Below, piece after piece: positions 1,392-23,365 of a stretch of 25,236 nt of DNA. A model generated the notes under the pieces. That model was not told the DNA's origin. It worked only from the letters and a program-made list of their open reading frames with translations, and made no database searches. This DNA comes from a virus, in IMG/VR virus record IMGVR_UViG_3300047480_000301, positions 1 through 25,236 of that record; one strand, given 5' to 3'. The stretch's first letter is position 1. Each line of letters starts with the position of its first letter. Made by a program: the position numbers and the translations under genes.

Positions 1392-1423
1392 TGAGAGGGT
1401 CGAAAAAATGCTCTCTCTTTTTA

Positions 1424-1449
1424 TCAACTCAATAGGTGTCAACATGAAA
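1424..1449 (+). promoter_or_regulatory. Repeated translation leader, copies 1 and 2
   Basis: TCAACTCAATAGGTGT followed by CAACATGAAA supplies the AGGTG ribosome-binding site for the gene at 1444. A shorter second copy, TATAGGTGTTCACATGAAA, precedes the gene at 1819. The leader decides the start at 1444 over an upstream in-frame ATG at 1408 that has no such site. Confidence 0.6.
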
Positions 1450-1698
1450 CAATTTGAATATCAACTAATAAACAAAACAACGGGTAGAGCAGAACATGCT
1501 CGAGCAACGGCTAAAACGGCTGACATAGCTCGTTTACAGATCGTCCTAATGTACGGGCGTCAATTTGAGGTCTTAGAGCTTTACAGCAACGTTAATCCAC
1601 CTCACCACGTCTTAGGTGAGATCGACTGCTCAGATTTTCCAGATTCTGACATTCAGTGGCTTATCAGTGAAGTTGCAAAACAAGAGGTTACAGCATGA
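1444..1698 (+). CDS. Hypothetical early protein (84 aa)
   Basis: An 84-residue protein starting MKQFEYQLINKTTGRAE, with alternating strands (FEYQLINK, FEVLELYS) and a helical middle, ending in an acidic segment (EIDCSDFPDSD) and EVAKQEVTA. The start at 1444 is chosen because the conserved AGGTGTCAAC leader precedes it. It is the first gene of the rightward module that carries the clamp-like protein, and its stop overlaps the next start (ATGA). No family recognised; a small host-directed early protein is a guess from position only. Confidence 0.7.
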   Translation: MKQFEYQLINKTTGRAEHARATAKTADIARLQIVLMYGRQFEVLELYSNVNPPHHVLGEIDCSDFPDSDIQWLISEVAKQEVTA

Positions 1699-1790
1699 AA
1701 AACACTCTCTTAGACCTCTTATCTGTCCTTATCATTGCTTCATTGCTTTGCATTGGGCTATTGGCTTATTTTGACGTTTTGGTCAAATAA
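1695..1790 (+). CDS. 31-residue single-span membrane micro-protein
   Basis: Reads MKNTLLDLLSVLIIASL and continues LCIGLLAYFDVLVK before a TAA. Residues 5-27 are almost entirely hydrophobic, so it should be a single transmembrane helix with a Lys at each end. The ATG overlaps the upstream stop as ATGA, which is the strongest evidence that it is translated; a 28-bp gap and another AGGTGT leader follow. It could be a membrane or host-physiology modifier. Its small size leaves a real chance that it is fortuitous. Confidence 0.55.
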   Translation: MKNTLLDLLSVLIIASLLCIGLLAYFDVLVK

Positions 1791-1818
1791 TCTTTTTTTT
1801 CTTTTTATAGGTGTTCAC

Positions 1819-2013
1819 ATGAAAATTATCGTTCACGTTCAAGGCAACTCTGAGAAAACGTTTGCTTCTATCAATGAAGCTCTATCGTTTGCCCGTTTGC
1901 AAGTGTATGCAACTCAAGCGACAATTATTAGGGCTTTTGATGCTTTGCAAGATGGAAACCTTGCACAATGGAATTATGGGTTTTCCTCAGTGGCGGTATA
2001 TCCTGAAAACTGA
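1819..2013 (+). CDS. Hypothetical early protein (64 aa)
   Basis: A 64-residue protein starting MKIIVHVQGNSEKTFASINE. Pattern: strand, acidic helix (NEALSFARLQVYATQA), then FDALQDGNLAQWNYGFSS and a final strand VAVYPEN, suggesting a compact alpha/beta fold. The ATG at 1819 sits immediately after the repeated AGGTGTTCAC leader, so the longer in-frame reading from 1735 is rejected. It lies between a micro-membrane protein and the clamp gene. Family unknown. Confidence 0.7.
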   Translation: MKIIVHVQGNSEKTFASINEALSFARLQVYATQATIIRAFDALQDGNLAQWNYGFSSVAVYPEN

Positions 2014-2017
2014 CATT

Positions 2018-2065
2018 CCAGCGGGTAAGCTCACGGGCTGGGCTTATTCGATGCAATGTTGCATC
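2018..2065 (+). repeat. Two inverted repeats upstream of the clamp gene
   Basis: CCAGC-N14-GCTGG (2018-2041) is followed by a 16-bp palindrome, GATGCAA-TG-TTGCATC (2050-2065), which as RNA would fold as a 6-bp stem with a 4-base loop. Both lie in the 74-bp gap before the clamp ATG at 2088. They could be an operator or a structured leader; no U-run follows, so neither is a terminator. Confidence 0.5.
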
Positions 2066-2067
2066 AT

Positions 2068-2093
2068 TCAACTCAATAGGTGTTCAAATGAAA
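2068..2093 (+). promoter_or_regulatory. Repeated translation leader, copies 3 and 4
   Basis: TCAACTCAATAGGTGT recurs here exactly, followed by TCAAATGAAA at the clamp start. A fourth, shorter copy (AAAGGTGTCAACATGAAA, 2783-2800) precedes the acidic-protein gene. Together with those at 1424 and 1806 they give four near-identical AGGTGT leaders in 1.4 kb. Confidence 0.6.
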
Positions 2094-2717
2094 TTCTCCA
2101 TTCAACGCAAGTCAATCCGTGCAATGCTTCACTTAGCAGCTAAAAAGGATATCCGATACTACTTGCAAGGGGTTAACGTGGTGCGCGACAATCGCGGTAC
2201 ATACTTAGAAGCCACTGACGGGCACGTTTTAGGCCGTTTATTGATTGACGGGATCAAGTCAGACACAAAATTAAACGTTGTTTTGCCTACTGATGCACTC
2301 TTAAAACTCAAGGGAACAAAAAAACAAGGCGAAGAGTGGTTGCATTTTGACGTCAACGGATTGTCAGTAGAGTGCATCGATTCTCAATCTACAACCCGCT
2401 TTTCCGCCCATGATGCACGTTTTCCTGATGCTGACCGCGTTATTCCGATAGTTTTCAAGGATGAAGATGTAAAACCCGCAACATTTAACCCTGATTTACT
2501 GGTGCGTTTTGTTGATGTCAGTGAAGATTTATATGGGAAACGTCAAATACCTCATGTTTTGCAGCGCGGTACTCAATCGGCTATTGTCAGTTTTCCAAAA
2601 TTTGACGATTCTTTCATCGGGGTTATCATGCCCATGCGCGAAGATGGTACGGCTCGCGTGCCCTCATGGTGCTATACACCCTCAGTAAAACCCGTAGAAA
2701 CGACAGAAACGGCTTAA
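2088..2717 (+). CDS. Shortened DNA polymerase III beta sliding clamp-like protein
   Basis: 209 residues. From the family sequence I know, it aligns with E. coli DnaN from domain 2 onward: KKDIRYYLQGVN matches the domain-2 start, LEATDGHVLGRL (40-51) matches ATDGHRLA, and HDARFPDADRVIP (108-120) matches the end of domain 2. The end VIMPMR (179-184) matches the DnaN C-terminus, with a 25-residue tail after it. Domain 1 is absent and domain 3 appears internally shortened. The retained residues are those lining the cleft that binds clamp-binding peptides of polymerases and the loader. It may act as a phage clamp, a heterologous ring subunit or a decoy. The start is set by the repeated AGGTGT leader. 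Confidence 0.8.
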   Translation: MKFSIQRKSIRAMLHLAAKKDIRYYLQGVNVVRDNRGTYLEATDGHVLGRLLIDGIKSDTKLNVVLPTDALLKLKGTKKQGEEWLHFDVNGLSVECIDSQSTTRFSAHDARFPDADRVIPIVFKDEDVKPATFNPDLLVRFVDVSEDLYGKRQIPHVLQRGTQSAIVSFPKFDDSFIGVIMPMREDGTARVPSWCYTPSVKPVETTETA

Positions 2718-2754
2718 TTTCAGACTGCAAAGCCTCTTTTTAGGGGTTTTGTGG

Positions 2755-2773
2755 CCTGCAATTCGCAGGTTTT
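2755..2773 (+). terminator. Weak hairpin plus T-run after the clamp gene
   Basis: CCTGC-AATTC-GCAGG followed by TTTT, 37 bp after the clamp stop. The 5-bp stem and short T-run suggest at most partial termination or mRNA 3'-end protection before the acidic-protein gene. An AGCCTC...GGGGTTTT stem with G-U pairs lies just upstream. Confidence 0.3.
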
Positions 2774-2794
2774 CAACATTTAAAAGGTGTCAAC

Positions 2795-3121
2795 ATGAAA
2801 ACTATTGTTTCTTTTTCTGAATTTTCCGATTCTTTCCGCGATATTCGCCCTGATAACTTTTCATACCAGGCGCTGAGAATTCTATTTTCTTATTTTGAAC
2901 AATATGAAGATGAAACGGGCGAAGAGATTGAACTAGATGTAATCGCTATTTGCTGCGAGTTTTCCGAAGACACTTGGCAAAATATTGCAGATCAGTACGG
3001 TTTAGACCTTGAAAAATACGTTTCAGATGAAGACAAGCAAGAGGTTGTTGCAGATTATTTATCAGATCAAGGGGTTTACATTGCCGAAGTAGGCGACTGC
3101 ATCGTTTACCGTCAGTTTTGA
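2795..3121 (+). CDS. Strongly acidic phage protein (108 aa)
   Basis: A 108-residue protein with about 26 Asp/Glu against about 7 Lys/Arg. The core YFEQYEDETGEEIELDVI then AICCEFSED resembles a recurring small phage and mobile-element protein whose function I cannot name. The acid runs are spread over predicted helices (EDKQEVVADYLSDQ), which is also how DNA-mimic antirestriction proteins look, but no specific Ocr or ArdA signature is seen. The start uses the conserved AGGTGTCAAC leader; the gene ends 60 bp before a strong terminator. Gene reality is firm; function is open. Confidence 0.8.
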   Translation: MKTIVSFSEFSDSFRDIRPDNFSYQALRILFSYFEQYEDETGEEIELDVIAICCEFSEDTWQNIADQYGLDLEKYVSDEDKQEVVADYLSDQGVYIAEVGDCIVYRQF

Positions 3122-3184: not shown

Positions 3185-3212
3185 AAGCCCTCTTCGGAGG
3201 GTTTTTCTTTTT
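3185..3212 (+). terminator. Rho-independent terminator of the rightward clamp module
   Basis: CCCTC-TTCG-GAGGG stem-loop with a UUCG tetraloop (flanking AAG/TTT can extend it), followed by TTTTTCTTTTT. It ends the 1444-3180 transcription unit and faces the end of the long leftward operon at 3249. Confidence 0.9.
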
Positions 3213-5734: not shown

Positions 5735-6020
5735 AATCATCACACTCGCAGATAAAGTTATAGCAACGCAGGCAGTAACCAGCCTCGCCCATTTGCATCC
5801 TGACTTCGTGCTTCAGGCTGTAATAACGCTCAAACAATGGCGTCCCGTCTTCCATGTCAGCATCTTGTGGCAAATCAGCATCGTAAAACCTTGCCCATGC
5901 TTCAAATAACTCCTCGTTTTGCTTAAATACCCTTGCGCTTCTCTCAATTAGCTTTTTGTTGCCTTCGGTTAAATCGTCTATTTTCTTTTGCTGTTCAGCA
6001 ATAATTCTTTCTAAACTCAT
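5727..6020 (-). CDS. Coiled-coil protein with C-terminal Cys cluster (97 aa)
   Basis: 97 residues. Residues 1-40 form a heptad-like coiled coil (RIIAEQQKKIDDLTEGNKKL). A middle acidic segment follows, and the C-terminus is GYCLRCYNFICECDDYE, giving C-x2-C-x4-C-x-C, likely one zinc site. The start overlaps the upstream homing-endonuclease stop (ATGA) behind AAGGAGAAC. Probably a dimeric small zinc protein; function unknown. Confidence 0.72.
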   Translation of the reverse strand: MSLERIIAEQQKKIDDLTEGNKKLIERSARVFKQNEELFEAWARFYDADLPQDADMEDGTPLFERYYSLKHEVRMQMGEAGYCLRCYNFICECDDYE

Positions 6021-6472
6021 GTGTTCTCCTTGTATGCTTGATGTGCAAGCTCTGCCGTTTCATACAACCCTAAATAGATTTGTTTGCCATTCTTATGAAT
6101 GTGAGCGGCATATTTGTTTCTACGCTTTACGACACCCAAAAATCCAGTTTTATTTTTTGTAGTAGCCGACTTGCGGTTTTGCATGTTTACGCTATGCGGA
6201 ACATCACGTAAATTTTCAAGTTTGTTATTTGATGGATTGCCGTCTATGTGGTCTATGTCGCCAACAGGCCAAACACCATGATGAAGAAGCCAAGCAATAC
6301 GATGAACCAAATACTGTTTGTTGCAAAACTTTAGCTTTCGGTATCCGTTCTGCATCATGTTGCCTGCCTCCGTCCCATTGGCGGTTGATCGCCTTGGGCG
6401 GTTGATCCACCAAACTTTTCCATCTTCAGGTGTATACATAAGACGCTCAAAAATCATTGCTTCAATGTTCAT
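6017..6472 (-). CDS. HNH homing endonuclease with AP2-like C-terminus
   Basis: 151 residues. An HNH_3-type core has LVHRIAWLLHHG (the first His region) and DIDHIDGNPSNNKLENLR, the DHxxGxxxNN signature. A typical NMQNRK linker follows, and then an AP2-like DNA-binding domain: NKTGFLGVVKRRNKYAAHI and IYLGLYETAELAHQAYK. The AP2 end appears shortened, because the usual residues after the AYK helix are missing. Free-standing HNH-AP2 genes are selfish mobile elements. The ATG at 6472 is separated from the upstream gene by 21 bp, but its stop overlaps the next start (ATGA). Confidence 0.9.
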   Translation of the reverse strand: MNIEAMIFERLMYTPEDGKVWWINRPRRSTANGTEAGNMMQNGYRKLKFCNKQYLVHRIAWLLHHGVWPVGDIDHIDGNPSNNKLENLRDVPHSVNMQNRKSATTKNKTGFLGVVKRRNKYAAHIHKNGKQIYLGLYETAELAHQAYKENT

Positions 6473-6493
6473 AATGAATCTCCTTGCGTTTCA

Positions 6494-6748
6494 TTATAGA
6501 CCATTCTTCTCCTTGAGTTTGGCTTCAATGGCATCTAGCAAAGTCAACCAATCCTCGCTAAGACAACCGCAATCCACGCAGATTTGCATGGCTTCCTCAT
6601 CCGTCAGCCCAACCCATGTGCGCTGTGCCAAGGCTTCTTTGCACTCAAACAACAAAGTTCTAACTGCAAGGTGGTCGGCTAGCTCTGGATTGAACAACCC
6701 GCCAGAAGCTAAATAAAAGCTGATGCGGTTAATCAAGTTTTCAGTCAT
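6494..6748 (-). CDS. Shuffled-module accessory protein (84 aa)
   Basis: 84 residues. Helical N-terminus MTENLINRISFYLASGG, then LLFECKEALAQRTWVGLTDE, then CLSEDWLTLLDAIEAKLKEK. The block KEALAQ is followed directly by RTWVGLTDEE. In the neighbouring gene at 6745 the same KEALAQ is followed by a 46-residue PVAW...PLYTSPP insert before RKPLSEEE. So this looks like the same architecture with the middle module missing. Overlaps both the upstream stop (ATGA) and a 21-bp gap before the endonuclease. Function unknown. Confidence 0.7.
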   Translation of the reverse strand: MTENLINRISFYLASGGLFNPELADHLAVRTLLFECKEALAQRTWVGLTDEEAMQICVDCGCLSEDWLTLLDAIEAKLKEKNGL

Positions 6749-7836: not shown

Positions 7837-7851
7837 TAGGGACTTACCCTT
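7837..7851. repeat. Inverted repeat TAGGG-N5-CCCTT in an operon gap
   Basis: TAGGG-ACTTA-CCCTT in the 64-bp gap between rusA and the next gene, similar in form to TAGGG-N5-CCCTA at 11181 and TAGGG-N4-CCCTA at 850. The sites may be operators or processing sites. Confidence 0.35.
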
Positions 7852-8278
7852 ACTCCAAACACTCTTTCACACAAATATCGACACCTGGTTCACTTGAGTA
7901 AACCTTCGTAACGTGAATGTTGACGATCTGAGAATCATCTTTGTAAACAACTCCATTCATCCCGTCCTCCACCGATTTCAGGACGTTAGACGCATCGGGC
8001 TTCTTTGTTGGTTTCTCTGATCCATCGGCAATGGCTTGTAGGCGCTTTTTGGTTGCTGATGCAGGGATTGGCACTCTGATGTACAGATATAGGCTTACAG
8101 GGGTCTCCAAAGGCTCGGATGCACCCATTGCTTGCCTAGCGGCATCTTTAATCAAGGTTTCATAGGTTCTTGTTTTCTCAGGGGTGTAGGCTTGAACAAA
8201 GTTACCCCTTTTGACATACCTTGCTCGACCTTTTGGTACGGGTACGCCATCTACTTTAAATGTCACCATGAATGTCAT
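7850..8278 (-). CDS. rusA: RusA-family Holliday junction resolvase
   Basis: 142 residues from MTFMVTFKVDGVPVPKGRAR. The family features are present: VPVPKGRARY, AYTPEKTRTYE, KPTKKPDASNVLKSVEDGMN and VVYKDDSQIV. RusA resolves Holliday junctions by paired incisions using three conserved acidic residues. Here D95 and D115 fit two of them, but the residue expected as Asp two after D95 is Ser97, so activity is uncertain. The start at 8278 is chosen because it overlaps the upstream stop (ATGA) and has AAGGAAGC upstream; longer in-frame starts run into the neighbouring gene. Confidence 0.88.
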   Translation of the reverse strand: MTFMVTFKVDGVPVPKGRARYVKRGNFVQAYTPEKTRTYETLIKDAARQAMGASEPLETPVSLYLYIRVPIPASATKKRLQAIADGSEKPTKKPDASNVLKSVEDGMNGVVYKDDSQIVNIHVTKVYSSEPGVDICVKECLE

Positions 8279-8421
8279 GTTGCTTCCTTGCTTGCCAACC
8301 AAGCAGCTTCCCAAACTTGATACATACGACCATGACAAGGAAAGTCTTGTACTTTGTAATCAGGAAATGATAGCTTGCACCAGTTTCTGTATGCGATTTT
8401 GATTTTTGTTTCAGGTTTCAT
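8275..8421 (-). CDS. 48-residue hypothetical micro-protein
   Basis: 48 residues: MKPETKIKIAYRNWCKLSF, PDYKVQDFPCHGRMYQVW and EAAWLASKEAT. Basic N-terminus, aromatic-rich centre and a helical end typical of small phage accessory proteins with an ...AWLASKEA tail. Both ends overlap neighbours as ATGA (with the 8418-8630 gene and with rusA), which is the main evidence for translation. Function unknown. Confidence 0.68.
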   Translation of the reverse strand: MKPETKIKIAYRNWCKLSFPDYKVQDFPCHGRMYQVWEAAWLASKEAT

Positions 8422-8630
8422 AAAAGTGTCCCATCTCTCATTTGTGCCATGTACATCCTTATGCGATCTCTTGCACCAGAGCCGTAGATTCTTTCGGCTC
8501 TTTCTAGTCTCGCTCGGATAAGGTCTCTGTTTTTTGTTTGTTCCCAGTTATGGAATAACTCTCGGGCTTCTGCTTGCTCAAGAGTTACTCTGTCACTAGG
8601 GCCTTGAATATTACGTCTGCTCCAAGTCAC
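8418..8630 (-). CDS. Hypothetical basic protein (70 aa), GTG start
   Basis: 70 residues: MTWSRRNIQGPSDRVTLEQA, EARELFHNWEQTKNRDLIR and ARLERAERIYGSGARDRIRM. Rich in Arg/Glu helices; pI likely basic. It uses a GTG at 8630, with GGAATT upstream. The start lies within the preceding 37-residue gene, a 20-bp overlap. Probably a small nucleic-acid-associated or regulatory protein, but nothing specific can be recognised. Confidence 0.65.
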   Translation of the reverse strand: MTWSRRNIQGPSDRVTLEQAEARELFHNWEQTKNRDLIRARLERAERIYGSGARDRIRMYMAQMRDGTLL

Positions 8631-8724
8631 CAGTTAATTCCAATGCTTTGTTTATCAGGTGTAGTGGATAAGGTACGCCTTCACGCACCTTGTCCAGTAG
8701 TTGATGTGCTTCGTAGTGGCTCAA
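8611..8724 (-). CDS. 37-residue micro-protein with a TTG start
   Basis: Reads MSHYEAHQLLDKVREGVPY then PLHLINKALELTGDLEQT. The pattern VREGVPYPLHLINKALELTGD resembles a short conserved element I have seen in phage proteins. The TTG at 8724 overlaps the methyltransferase stop as TTGA and has GAGG nine bases upstream, so it continues the operon's coupling pattern with a rare start codon. Function unknown. Confidence 0.6.
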   Translation of the reverse strand: MSHYEAHQLLDKVREGVPYPLHLINKALELTGDLEQT

Positions 8725-9401
8725 AACATAGCCTCTTGAATTTGCTTGGGCTGTTCATGTGCAAACAATTGAGGTTGCGATACGGCTTGCTCAATACGCT
8801 TGCAAGCAATATCAAAATACTTTTGTTCACGCTCGATGCCAATGAATTTTCTGCCCATTTGTATCGCAGCTACACCAGTAGTACCGCTACCCATAAATGG
8901 GTCAAGAATTGTTCCAGAAATCCACTCAACAAACTTGCACATCAATCCAATTGGTTTTTCAGTTGGATGAAACTCATTGTTTGTTCTTGGATATTCAATT
9001 ACATCAGTTGGTCTTTGCTTTGGAAAAAAGTGATCTTTCATTGCATAGAAAAAAGCAACTTCAGTTTGTCTTGCGTGTTCATGGTGCAAGTCCCCCATTG
9101 ACCAATTGTTTTTTACCCATGTAATTAAACTTTTTGGTTTTGGATAGTCGTAAAGGTTATCCCATCTACCAAAAGCATAGATTGAATGATTTGTGTTTTG
9201 CAGACACCAATTGATAACTTGAATAGCAACTTCAGCAGAATCATCATTTGCAATCTTTAAATGTTTTTCATTTCTAAAATTAGATTGAAAATTCATTCCA
9301 TAAGGAGGGTCAGTAATAACAGCATCAACCTTGTCAATCAATGGCAAAACCTCTAAACAGTCACCAAGGTAAAGTGTTGCGTTTCCAATTTCTACTTTCA
9401 T
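8721..9401 (-). CDS. DNA methyltransferase (N6-adenine/N4-cytosine, beta class)
   Basis: 226 residues. Motif IV TDPPYGM sits near residue 30 (catalytic DPPY), and motif I DPFMGSGTTGVAA near residue 165 binds S-adenosylmethionine. The order IV before I marks a beta-class amino-methyltransferase (N6-adenine or N4-cytosine). Also seen are HPTEKPIGLM, which precedes motif I, and FIGIEREQKYFDIACKRI. No restriction partner lies nearby, so it is an orphan phage enzyme, likely protecting DNA from host restriction or altering regulation. The target sequence cannot be read from this. The ATG at 9401 overlaps the upstream stop (ATGA). Confidence 0.92.
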   Translation of the reverse strand: MKVEIGNATLYLGDCLEVLPLIDKVDAVITDPPYGMNFQSNFRNEKHLKIANDDSAEVAIQVINWCLQNTNHSIYAFGRWDNLYDYPKPKSLITWVKNNWSMGDLHHEHARQTEVAFFYAMKDHFFPKQRPTDVIEYPRTNNEFHPTEKPIGLMCKFVEWISGTILDPFMGSGTTGVAAIQMGRKFIGIEREQKYFDIACKRIEQAVSQPQLFAHEQPKQIQEAMF

Positions 9402-20149: not shown

Positions 20150-23100
20150 TTATAAGAACAAGCCAAGGTCTTGATTGCCATACGCTAATCCAGTACCAAA
20201 ACCAGACGAACCTAATCCTGTTTGACCAAACGCAGATTGAAGGCCTGACAATCCACCGCTAAACAAACCAGTTAATGACTGACCAATCATAGCGTTAGGA
20301 TTACCTGCGGCAGTTAAGCCTTGAGCCAAAAGGTTGCGTGTAGCATCATCACTTGTTGCTAAACCTGCGCTTAATTGCGCACCTTTAAGACCTAGTTGAC
20401 CAACATTAAACCCTGCTTGTGAGCCAATTTGTCCTAAGTTAACACCCATGTTGTAAGGTTGTTGACCTAAAGTCTCTAAGTTTTGGGCTTGCCCCAAAGC
20501 AGTCGTATATGGAGCATAAGCCGCTTGTTGACCTGCGTAGTACTGACCCATAGTCTGCGCACCAGTACCCAAGAGTCCAGCACCGAATGCGACTTGTTGT
20601 TGACCAGCTTGTTGAGCATTAGCCGCCAATTGAGCCTCTTGTTGAGCACGGGCGTTATACAGAGCTTGCAACTCAGGAGTAGTAGCCCCCATAGTGCCGC
20701 CTTGAGCTACTGCCAAACCACCACGACCTTGTTGTTGCAGTTTGTTTTGCAGATTTGCCAACTCCAACTCACGACCTGGTTGCAACAAAGCCATCTGTTG
20801 ATTCAGATAGTTCTGAGCAACTTGTTCAGGAGATTGAGCAATATACTGATTACCCAAGCTAAACAAACGTTGCGCACCAGTTTGTAAAGGAGCAAATTGA
20901 GCCTGTGCACCCTCTGCTTGTGTCAAACCTTGATTAGACAAAGCCATCAAGCGATCTTGTTGAGCTTTTACATCAGGTGTTAAAGAATAACCAGCGCTTG
21001 ATAATCTACCAGTTGCAGGATCAAAACCAAACTGAGAAGTTCCAAACCTAGTTGTCATGCCAATAGGTCGGAATTGAGCAGCATCTTTAGCCGCTTTTGT
21101 CTCAGCATCAATCATTGCTTGCGCACGTTGAGCCGCTTCTCTTGACGTTTGCATCTGCAAGAGATTACCCGCAGTACCAAGACCCCCAGAGATCAAGTTA
21201 GGCAATCCTGATAACAAATTAGACAAACCTAAAGTCCCTGCCGTGTTTAGCAAAGGATTAGAGTTTGTAGTTTGAGTTGGTATTTCAGGCAATGTTAATG
21301 GCGTACTTGGTTGAATCAATGGAATTGTTGCAGCAGTAATATCACTAGTAATGCTAGATTGTCTTGGTGCAGTAATAGTCTGAGTTGGAAGCGAAGGAGT
21401 AACCAAGCCCGCAGCAATGGCGGCCACATCTTGTGTAGTTACAGGTTTATTGCTGGTAATAATCTGCTCTGCAACACTATTGGTAATGTTTGGTGAAACA
21501 GCAGAAACAGCACCAACCAAATCAGAAACCTTTAAGTTCTGACCACTTGTAATCAATACTTGTGCTTGTGTTTGCGCTTGTTGAACAGTTACATTAGGTA
21601 CAGTTGCAAGAATCGCATTTGTGATCTCTTGTGCTGTAGCAGGTTTATTTGCTGTAACTTGTACATTTGCTAAGTTAGCAGGAGTTCCTACATTAGTTGC
21701 AAGTTGGTTATTAACGAGATTAAGGATTCCTTGATCCACCATTTGTGGCTGTGCTGTACCAGTTACATTTACAGTACCACCCTGTGTTACTGGAGTAGTT
21801 GTTGCAGTTGTTACAGGTGAAGTTGGAGTAGCCAAGCTACTTAATAAACCGCCAGTACTAATCGCAGGAGTTGCAGCACCAGTAACATTTACAGCACCTG
21901 CTGTTGGCAATGTTGATACAGGAGTGCCTGTTAAAGAAGATATTGCTCTTTCAACAACGATGTCGTTATAACCACCAGCCGACAAAGTATCAGCAATTTG
22001 AGTTGTTGATAAACCTTGGCTTGCTAAGTTTTTAGCATCTACAGCAGCAAACTGACGTTCTGTCATGCCAGGGTCTGCAATAGAGCCAGTAGCAAGATAA
22101 TTGTCTAATGCGGATGCACCATAAGAAGCCGCACCACCAAGCAAAGCACCTTTAAGAATATCTTGTCCTGTGCCGCCTGCCAATGCAGTTGTACCACCAC
22201 CAATAGTCGCTCCAGTTAGACCTGCTAACGTAGAGCCAGTAGTACCTGTTAAGCCTCCGAGAAGACCTGTAAGACCAGGCAAGCCAACAGTAGAAGCAGC
22301 CAATCCAACAACAGGAGCAGCAGCCGCCAATAAACCTTTATCACCACCACCTGCGAAAGTGCCTGAGTCAATTACTTCACCAGTTTTGGGGTTAACTGTT
22401 TGCCAGTTAGCAGGATTATTAGGGTCTACTTTAGTCTCATAAACAACTTGAGGAACACCAGCAATCTGCTCTTCAATGTTGTCGCCTTCAATGACATTGC
22501 CACGAACACCAGGAATTGCCTTAACCAAGGACTGAGCAACCACAGGATTAGAAGCAGCCTGAACAATAACTGGAGGAGTTGTATCTACAGTATTTGTCTT
22601 CTGTACTTGGGCAATTGCTTGTGGCGTACTAGATGGAACTTCATTCTTAAACTGAGATAAAGCATCGATAACTGACTGGTTATAGATTGATGTTCCTTCA
22701 GCGTTTGTATGCAAAGCATCTACTAACAATTTCTTGTTTTGCAGAATCTCGCCTTGTGTACCAACCAAAGCAACATTAGAGTTAGCTTTAGCTACATCTT
22801 TGTAAATTTGGTCAACTTCTGGATTAAAGTTGTTGTTGATAACATCTTCAACAGATTTGGCATAAGGAGAACCAGTCAAGACAACATTAACACCTTGGTC
22901 GCCCAAAGTCTTAACGATCTGGTTTAGGTTATCTTTAACAACACCTTTATCTACACCAGTAATGAAGTCAACACCACCTGCTTGCAAGTAAACAGTAGCA
23001 TTAGGGTCAAACTGACCACCACCTGCCAAGAATGTATTTAGTTGATTTAAGGTATCGGTAGTAGTAGAGCCAGCAACAGCATAATTAGCCGTCTGTTGAC

Positions 23101-23365
23101 CAGTAGCCTCAGTAAGTTGGTTCTGTAAAGCTGTATTAGAGCTATTCCAACTAGCACCAGCCATAATGTTTCCACTTAGCAAACCACCTGATTTGCCTCC
23201 AGTAGCAACCGCTACATCTTCTGGAGAAATACCATATTGAGCCATCTGAGCTTGTGTTTGAGCTGCAGTTGGATTAGTAGCTAAGAAGTCATTGATGTTC
23301 TTATAAACATCAGCCTCTGACATACCATTTGCCAAAGCCCATTGCATTGCTGGTGATAAAGCCAT
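20150..23365 (-). CDS. 1071-residue virion protein with SGNH-hydrolase-like N-terminal domain
   Basis: 1071 residues. The region about residues 50-235 follows the SGNH/GDSL plan: YAVAGSTTTDTLNQL (block II glycine 99), VYLQAGGVDFITG (block III place, with Val132 where Asn is usual) and VDALHTNAEG (D216xxH219, block V). The nucleophile block is not clear (GGKS near 57 or GNIMAG near 65). Then come Gly/Ala-rich hydrophobic repeats, 31-37-residue Thr/Val-rich repeats around 570-655, and a long Gln/Ala-rich C-terminus. Probably an internal or tail-associated virion protein; the domain may be enzymatically degenerate. AGGAGAAAATT precedes the ATG. Confidence 0.72.
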   Translation of the reverse strand: MALSPAMQWALANGMSEADVYKNINDFLATNPTAAQTQAQMAQYGISPEDVAVATGGKSGGLLSGNIMAGASWNSSNTALQNQLTEATGQQTANYAVAGSTTTDTLNQLNTFLAGGGQFDPNATVYLQAGGVDFITGVDKGVVKDNLNQIVKTLGDQGVNVVLTGSPYAKSVEDVINNNFNPEVDQIYKDVAKANSNVALVGTQGEILQNKKLLVDALHTNAEGTSIYNQSVIDALSQFKNEVPSSTPQAIAQVQKTNTVDTTPPVIVQAASNPVVAQSLVKAIPGVRGNVIEGDNIEEQIAGVPQVVYETKVDPNNPANWQTVNPKTGEVIDSGTFAGGGDKGLLAAAAPVVGLAASTVGLPGLTGLLGGLTGTTGSTLAGLTGATIGGGTTALAGGTGQDILKGALLGGAASYGASALDNYLATGSIADPGMTERQFAAVDAKNLASQGLSTTQIADTLSAGGYNDIVVERAISSLTGTPVSTLPTAGAVNVTGAATPAISTGGLLSSLATPTSPVTTATTTPVTQGGTVNVTGTAQPQMVDQGILNLVNNQLATNVGTPANLANVQVTANKPATAQEITNAILATVPNVTVQQAQTQAQVLITSGQNLKVSDLVGAVSAVSPNITNSVAEQIITSNKPVTTQDVAAIAAGLVTPSLPTQTITAPRQSSITSDITAATIPLIQPSTPLTLPEIPTQTTNSNPLLNTAGTLGLSNLLSGLPNLISGGLGTAGNLLQMQTSREAAQRAQAMIDAETKAAKDAAQFRPIGMTTRFGTSQFGFDPATGRLSSAGYSLTPDVKAQQDRLMALSNQGLTQAEGAQAQFAPLQTGAQRLFSLGNQYIAQSPEQVAQNYLNQQMALLQPGRELELANLQNKLQQQGRGGLAVAQGGTMGATTPELQALYNARAQQEAQLAANAQQAGQQQVAFGAGLLGTGAQTMGQYYAGQQAAYAPYTTALGQAQNLETLGQQPYNMGVNLGQIGSQAGFNVGQLGLKGAQLSAGLATSDDATRNLLAQGLTAAGNPNAMIGQSLTGLFSGGLSGLQSAFGQTGLGSSGFGTGLAYGNQDLGLFL

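Follow-up and report, generated by a model that had tools for sequence, protein, structure and literature searches.

In bacteria, proteins of replication and repair dock mainly at a pocket on the β sliding clamp, DnaN (TIGR00663; PF00712, PF02767, and PF02768), and this pocket is also a drug target. The interface of the β dimer pairs Ile78 and Phe106 of domain 1 with Ile272 and Leu273 of domain 3, and Lys74, Arg96, Arg103, and Arg105 form salt bridges to Glu298-304; the dimer is held at picomolar affinity, monomeric β is unable to tether Pol III, and the affinity of δ for monomeric β is ~50 times that for the dimer (PMC11139829). Phages are known to attack both the clamp loader (N4 gp8, which acts on HolA [PMC6466130]) and the clamp itself (Twort gp168, which acts on β [PMC11139829]). 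Some phages carry a full-length DnaN of three domains (e.g., Caulobacter phage Sansa and Arthrobacter phage Colucci). The trimeric clamps PCNA and T4 gp45 are built from the same repeated fold; each chain has two complete domains, and the ring interface is defined. E. coli also makes β-star, a shorter, UV-induced form of DnaN that lacks domain 1, retains all of domain 3, and works as a processivity clamp.

The protein described here, which we call the mini-clamp, is encoded in a phage sequence of 25,236 nucleotides, the whole of which is referred to as the window. Compared with DnaN, it shares domain 2, the second half of domain 3, and the pocket, but domain 1, the first half of domain 3, and the dimer interface are missing from it; its inner helices are shortened, and one is lost in one branch of the family. 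It is a clamp fragment like β-star but does not retain all of domain 3, and like PCNA and gp45 it has fewer than three domains per chain, although its 1.5 domains are three half-domain units in the model rather than two complete domains, with no known interface. The full-length phage DnaN proteins have a homologous fold and pocket and lie across a tree branch from the mini-clamps. N4 gp8 and Twort gp168 are aimed at the host clamp machinery, possibly with the same outcome as the mini-clamp, but neither is described as a copy of the clamp pocket in PMC6466130 or PMC11139829. Also close are the phage genes of PHROG 3007, of which the window protein is a member. These have the same architecture and length class (170 to 240 amino acids) and include Bcep781 gp15 and genes of Salmonella phage Akira and Serratia phage Eta; the window protein is only about 25 to 33% identical to members outside its own clade, and some ends and tails differ.

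The mini-clamp consists of domain 2 and half of domain 3 in the predicted structure

The mini-clamp open reading frame begins with an ATG, a few bases upstream of which stands AGGTG, which resembles a ribosome-binding site (for coordinates of all window features, see Table 1). Sequence searches detect only the first part of the protein. Residues 9 to 114 match Pfam DNA_pol3_beta_2 (E 7e-6), PDB clamps are matched over residues 3 to 120 with a weak additional piece (147 to 184 onto 330 to 366), and residues 7 to 124 match TIGR00663 dnaN at 135 to 253 with a score of 33.8 bits, which is below the equivalog cutoff of 137.65 bits; the protein does not contain three complete domains. Profile-profile alignment (hhalign) of the mini-clamp family against an E. 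coli-led DnaN alignment places residues 7 to 158 onto DnaN 136 to 284 with a probability of 99.4% (E 7e-22). The first half of domain 3 gives no significant hhalign match (E 0.063, probability 0.9%), and the second half (residues 129 to 185) gives a weak one (E 1.6e-3); the domain 3 assignment, weak by sequence alone, relies on the AlphaFold2 model and on the chain ends of relatives, which terminate KIVVMPMRL, exactly like AYVVMPMRL of E. coli.

The AlphaFold2 model, built from an alignment of 46 relatives, has a mean pLDDT of 90.4 and a pTM of 0.83. It contains three units: unit 1 (E2-6, H7-14, E28-34, E37-43, E47-54), unit 2 (E62-67, H68-74, E84-90, E93-97, E102-106), and unit 3, which is without its first strand (H135-149, E156-160, E164-168, E176-180). 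Residues 1 to 120 thus form two β-α-β-β-β units, the counterpart of E. coli DnaN 126 to 250, and residues 129 to 184 form one incomplete unit, the counterpart of about 307 to 365. Residues 1 to 185 of the model overlay E. coli β 126 to 366 with a Z score of 17.3 and an rmsd of 2.6 Å over 174 residues. The overlay gives the end points of the alignment, and the skipped piece of the clamp is deduced from the 241 residues spanned versus the 174 aligned; a sequence alignment built on E. coli 126 to 250 plus 307 to 366 fits the family without the intervening stretch. A Salmonella phage relative that is only 24% identical has the same architecture in its own model (pLDDT 87.0, pTM 0.85), with a best Z score of 14.1 and, against E. 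coli β, a Z score of 13.6 over 165 residues at 3.1 Å. Based on the profile matches, the models, and the overlays, we conclude that the mini-clamp, as modeled, comprises domain 2 and the C-terminal half of domain 3, or three of the six β-α-β-β-β units of β.

These results bear out an earlier reading of the sequence alone, which had proposed a clamp fragment of roughly 1.5 domains covering domain 2, with domain 1 missing: the overlay begins at residue 126 of E. coli β, the model and the Pfam, TIGR00663, and hhalign matches all place domain 2, and neither structure prediction nor profile comparison gave a complete three-domain clamp fold. That reading was also right that domain 3 is partial, but it assigned only the ends of domain 3, where we find a contiguous C-terminal half (the third helix and three strands, up to VIMPMR). 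The loss is also larger than the missing domain 1 that it had described, since the domain 3 half of the dimer interface is gone as well. No match over the cutoff to domain 1 was found in the window or in 29 other records that carry a mini-clamp, and the single sub-threshold match falls inside the mini-clamp gene itself. A full three-domain clamp hidden by a frameshift or a split gene was rejected, as the gene has its own start and leader and its relatives are equally long. The PxWC of the C-terminal tail is conserved within the clade of the window protein; Jersey-like and Dhillonvirus members have no tail, and their chains finish MPMRL.

Table 1. Positions of the mini-clamp gene, its parts, and other features in the window
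Feature	Position	Strand	Description or basis
Mini-clamp gene	2088..2717	+	209 aa = 1.5 clamp domains + 25-aa tail
Leader AGGTGTTCAAATGAAA, spanning the start codon	2078..2093	+	One of four copies in the gene group
Complete clamp domain 2, residues 1-120	2088..2447	+	Pfam PF02767, hhalign, model strands/helices
Second half of domain 3, residues 129-184	2472..2639	+	Model elements, overlay to residue 366, alignment
C-terminal tail with PxWC, past MPMR	2640..2714	+	Alignment
RYYL, residues 23-26	2154..2165	+	R152, L155 of β; R and L invariant (19 divergent relatives)
TDGHVL, residues 43-48	2214..2231	+	T172, G174, H175 (L177); T 95%, G 100%, H 95% (same 19)
PDADRV, residues 113-118	2424..2441	+	P242, R246, V247; identical to E. 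coli: P 95%, R 95%, V 68% (same 19)
VIMPMR, residues 179-184	2622..2639	+	V360, M362, P363, M364, R365; M 95%, P 89%, R 84% (same 19)
Rightward gene group	1408-3121	+	Includes the mini-clamp gene
Leader copies	1434-1449, 1809-1824, 2078-2093, 2785-2800	+	Pattern search
Second ATG of first gene in group	1444	+	Suggested start
Gene downstream of mini-clamp	2795-3121	+	Acidic 108-aa protein, phrog_9974 (unknown)
Terminator-like hairpin	3185-3204		After the gene group
RusA	7850-8338		phrog_140, E 4.5e-45
N6/N4 DNA methyltransferase	8721-9401	-	C terminus SQPQLFAHEQPKQIQEAMF
Candidate client motifs, methyltransferase tail	8724..8777	-	QPQLF 8763-8777, QEAMF 8724-8738; sequence
1071-aa protein near tail genes	20150-23365	-	Weak N-terminal GDSL-like lipase/acylhydrolase match

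The pocket is kept while the dimer interface is lost and inner helices are shortened

Both faces of the β dimer interface, the one on domain 1 and the one on the first half of domain 3, fall in the deleted pieces and are absent from the mini-clamp. The inner face differs as well. Unit 1 has a helix that in β lines the DNA channel, and every member compared has it shortened by ~4 residues. Jersey-like, Dhillonvirus, LIET2, and plasmid members have the helix of unit 2 deleted or replaced, a change of ~8 residues in the first three, and the model of a Jersey-like member has no helix at this position. Across the Jersey-like, Dhillonvirus, and LIET2 members the pocket is kept, LIET2 excepted. The loss of channel helices from proteins that mostly keep the pocket speaks against encirclement of DNA, at least for that branch. 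The branch of the window protein retains both inner helices; these are basic, with net charges of +4 and +2 in the window protein.

The pocket was defined as the 18 clamp-binding-motif residues of E. coli β listed in PMC11139829. The sequence-only reading had held that the partner-binding cleft is retained, and indeed the cleft residues align with those of DnaN, with 15 of 18 identical to E. coli in the window protein. Among 19 mini-clamps with mutual identity below 70%, 74% of the 18 pocket residues are identical to E. coli versus 17% of the other 167 aligned sites, a contrast that none of 100,000 permutations reached. In a control set of 11 full-length clamps, the corresponding values are 71% and 23%. 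The mini-clamps have therefore kept the pocket as well as real clamps have, while the remainder of the protein has diverged further. Part of the pocket conservation could be explained by the fold rather than by binding. The BcepC6B-type members have a degenerate pocket tip (VIAGCR) and 9 of 18 pocket residues, and in LIET2 the pocket is eroded to 7 of 18, so the pocket cannot be the function in all members.

The mini-clamp family is widespread and under strong purifying selection

Mini-clamps occur at more than 100 loci in IMG/VR, and 231 candidates from one scan were confirmed as relatives. In a phage collection the family is present in more than 275 records (285 by a Jersey-like query and 156 by the window query), compared with about 133 phage records for full-length clamps by an E. 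coli DnaN query. Carriers include phages of Salmonella, Escherichia, Klebsiella, Vibrio, Burkholderia, Xanthomonas, and Acinetobacter. The mini-clamp at locus L146 (positions 8001 to 8534), with its Jersey-like and Dhillonvirus relatives, has lost the inner-channel helix of the second half-domain and kept the pocket. Six plasmid records also have relatives, annotated as hypothetical proteins. A relative at locus L168 (positions 5995 to 6561) is on the conjugative Salmonella plasmid pLG24p2, ~1.3 kb upstream of excisionase and integrase genes, and it probably sits within an integrated element.

The dN/dS of the mini-clamp versus six relatives is 0.03 to 0.11, and the family is under strong purifying selection. 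With these values, more than 100 IMG/VR loci, and 285 phage records, we reject a chance open reading frame or a decaying pseudogene. In a tree, a branch supported at 100/99 separates 17 mini-clamps from 12 full-length clamps. Although the sampling of full-length clamps is sparse (n = 12), this suggests that the mini-clamps arose by a single truncation. Recent decay of a host gene is likewise rejected, by the dN/dS values and by the grouping of the family in one clade. A genome scan for a bacterial source gave 59 pattern matches, none of which (0 of 59) was confirmed as a relative.

The window protein matches the PHROG 3007 profile over its full length (residues 1 to 186 on 1 to 187 of 190, E 9.5e-31). 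In GenBank, members are labeled "DNA polymerase III beta subunit," "DNA Pol III b subunit fragment" (Bcep781 gp15), or "putative beta-clamp protein" (Eta). A search of freely accessible literature found no description of the 1.5-domain architecture. The family is thus already cataloged, while its half-domain architecture and pocket-only conservation are apparently undescribed.

Genome context

The mini-clamp gene is in a short rightward gene group that is flanked by leftward genes and followed by a terminator-like hairpin. The four genes of the group each begin with an identical or nearly identical 16-base leader, AGGTGT(T/C)(C/A)A(C/A)ATGAAA. The 25-kb window contains 4 matches to this pattern, versus 0.13 expected, and none elsewhere than in these genes. 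The shared leader suggests shared translational control of the four genes and also that the first gene of the group starts at its second ATG. The next gene downstream, for an acidic protein, is found close to the mini-clamp at 30 loci. The mini-clamp gene of Dhillonvirus and Bcep781 is on the opposite strand to the head genes; that of Yersinia phage P400 is also in the head-gene region, adjoining four small genes.

The window phage encodes an O-like initiator, an Erf annealing protein, and an SSB-like protein. In 30 carrier records, there was no match to clamp loader, Pol III alpha, or Pol B families, although many of these records, including the window, are fragments, and the absence of a gene is weak evidence for each such record. 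Pol A was matched in 3 of the 30, two of which are BcepC6B-type records with the degenerate pocket tip. On this count we rejected a fixed pairing of the mini-clamp with a phage polymerase. The carrier phages probably need host Pol III.

A pocket module that may compete for or redirect host clamp clients

The reading that we favor, with a probability of roughly 55%, is that the mini-clamp is a pocket module that does not form a β-type ring and that binds, competes for, or redirects clients of the host clamp. The DnaN-type clamp would have been cut down to its pocket-bearing part (domain 2 and the C-terminal half of domain 3), and, since both faces of the dimer interface are missing, it most likely forms no β-type ring around DNA. 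A monomeric state, peptide binding, and competition are together the most likely interpretation of the anatomy, the pocket conservation, and the selection on the gene. In its predicted fold, the protein would be small and soluble and would bind the QLxLF-type peptides carried by clients of the host clamp. In the course of infection it would compete with the host clamp for a subset of these (e.g., clamp-loader δ, Hda, MutL, and translesion polymerases) or, alternatively, hand them over to phage complexes, and host replication and repair would be altered in the phage's favor. For the clamp loader at least, a monomeric pocket should be a strong competitor because δ binds monomeric β so much more tightly than the dimer. 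From the conservation of the pocket we infer binding, and from binding a benefit to the phage.

The sequence-only reading had included a decoy that captures host clamp-binding proteins among its possible roles. This is plausible and is the best-fitting of the functional readings that we predict. However, a phage dependent on host Pol III and the host clamp would be ill served by an indiscriminate clamp decoy, so any such effect must be restricted by timing, dose, or choice of client. The probable need for host Pol III thus leads us to expect selective or timed competition, or delivery of clients, rather than general poisoning. A widespread ring-less pocket protein under strong selection would be a natural competitor for the pocket; it would reveal which clamp clients phages must control and would be a ready-made blocking tool.

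A tentative alternative, which we consider unlikely, is that the mini-clamp is an adaptor whose pocket hands a client of host or phage origin to a phage complex instead of removing it, for example, for post-replicative methylation by a phage methyltransferase or to bring a host polymerase to the phage origin. The probable reliance of phage survival on host replication proteins favors recruitment over poisoning, and the same phage encodes a candidate client. Its N6/N4 DNA methyltransferase ends with two QxxLF-like, and so clamp-binding-like, motifs (Table 1); when its last 30 residues are shuffled, the probability of two such motifs by chance is 0.0001, and both are kept in a relative that is 49% identical, which ends QTQLFAHEQPKQTQEAMF (QTQLF...QEAMF). 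On the other hand, the methyltransferases of six other phages (of Rhizobium, Octadecabacter, Pseudanabaena, Sulfitobacter, and Nostoc and a Caudoviricetes sp.) have QPDMF, QPDLF, QGDLF, QTDLF, QSDFF, or QTTLF in the same place, and none of these phages is named among the mini-clamp matches listed. The tail can be read as a tether to the host clamp: the motif looks like a general sliding-clamp tether, probably to the host's clamp, and suggests that post-replicative methylation may be tethered to a sliding clamp.

The sequence-only reading had also suggested an unusual phage clamp, and this has become less likely, given that both interface faces are gone and that one branch is also missing an inner helix. 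Spelled out, the idea is a genuine processivity clamp with a new stoichiometry, in which the twelve half-domains that make up a normal ring would come from four copies with three each. Clamp rings are known both as two chains of three domains and as three chains of two (PMC9690074), the window protein has basic inner helices and a conserved DNA-side loop (AKKDIRYYL), and the mini-clamp gene of BcepC6B adjoins a Pol A type polymerase gene. Nevertheless, both faces of the β dimer interface are deleted, the Jersey-like branch is without an inner helix, and no clamp loader was found in the 30 carrier records. In addition, an odd number of half-domains would not be expected to repeat the alternating intra- and interdomain contacts of β without a new interface. 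We therefore regard this ring as improbable. For the branch of the window protein in particular, with its basic inner helices, a twelve-unit ring of four 1.5-domain subunits might be loaded by the host clamp loader via the intact pocket; this specific version is very improbable but, if true, would be a clamp stoichiometry not previously seen.

The remaining role suggested by the sequence-only reading, a partner of the host clamp, finds no support in our results. There is at best a slim chance that the host clamp itself is the target, with the mini-clamp joining or capping open β rings as a nonproductive subunit. Its clamp homology makes such co-assembly conceivable, but neither face of the dimer interface is retained, and β dimers are held at picomolar affinity (PMC11139829).

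Database names and another annotation

PHROG 3007 and many RefSeq phage records carry the name "RusA-like Holliday junction resolvase," which is the only support for a resolvase and which we reject as having next to no chance of being correct, since the mini-clamp has no Pfam or NCBIfam RusA match, hhalign gives a probability of 0.3% with the window's own RusA family but 99.4% with clamp domain 2, and a separate, true RusA gene is present in the window. We conclude from these family comparisons that the name is wrong for the mini-clamp family, which corrects a misleading label on many RefSeq phage genomes. Elsewhere in the window, the GDSL-like match of the 1,071-amino-acid protein encoded near the tail genes has an E value of 5e-5, which is just above the cutoff.
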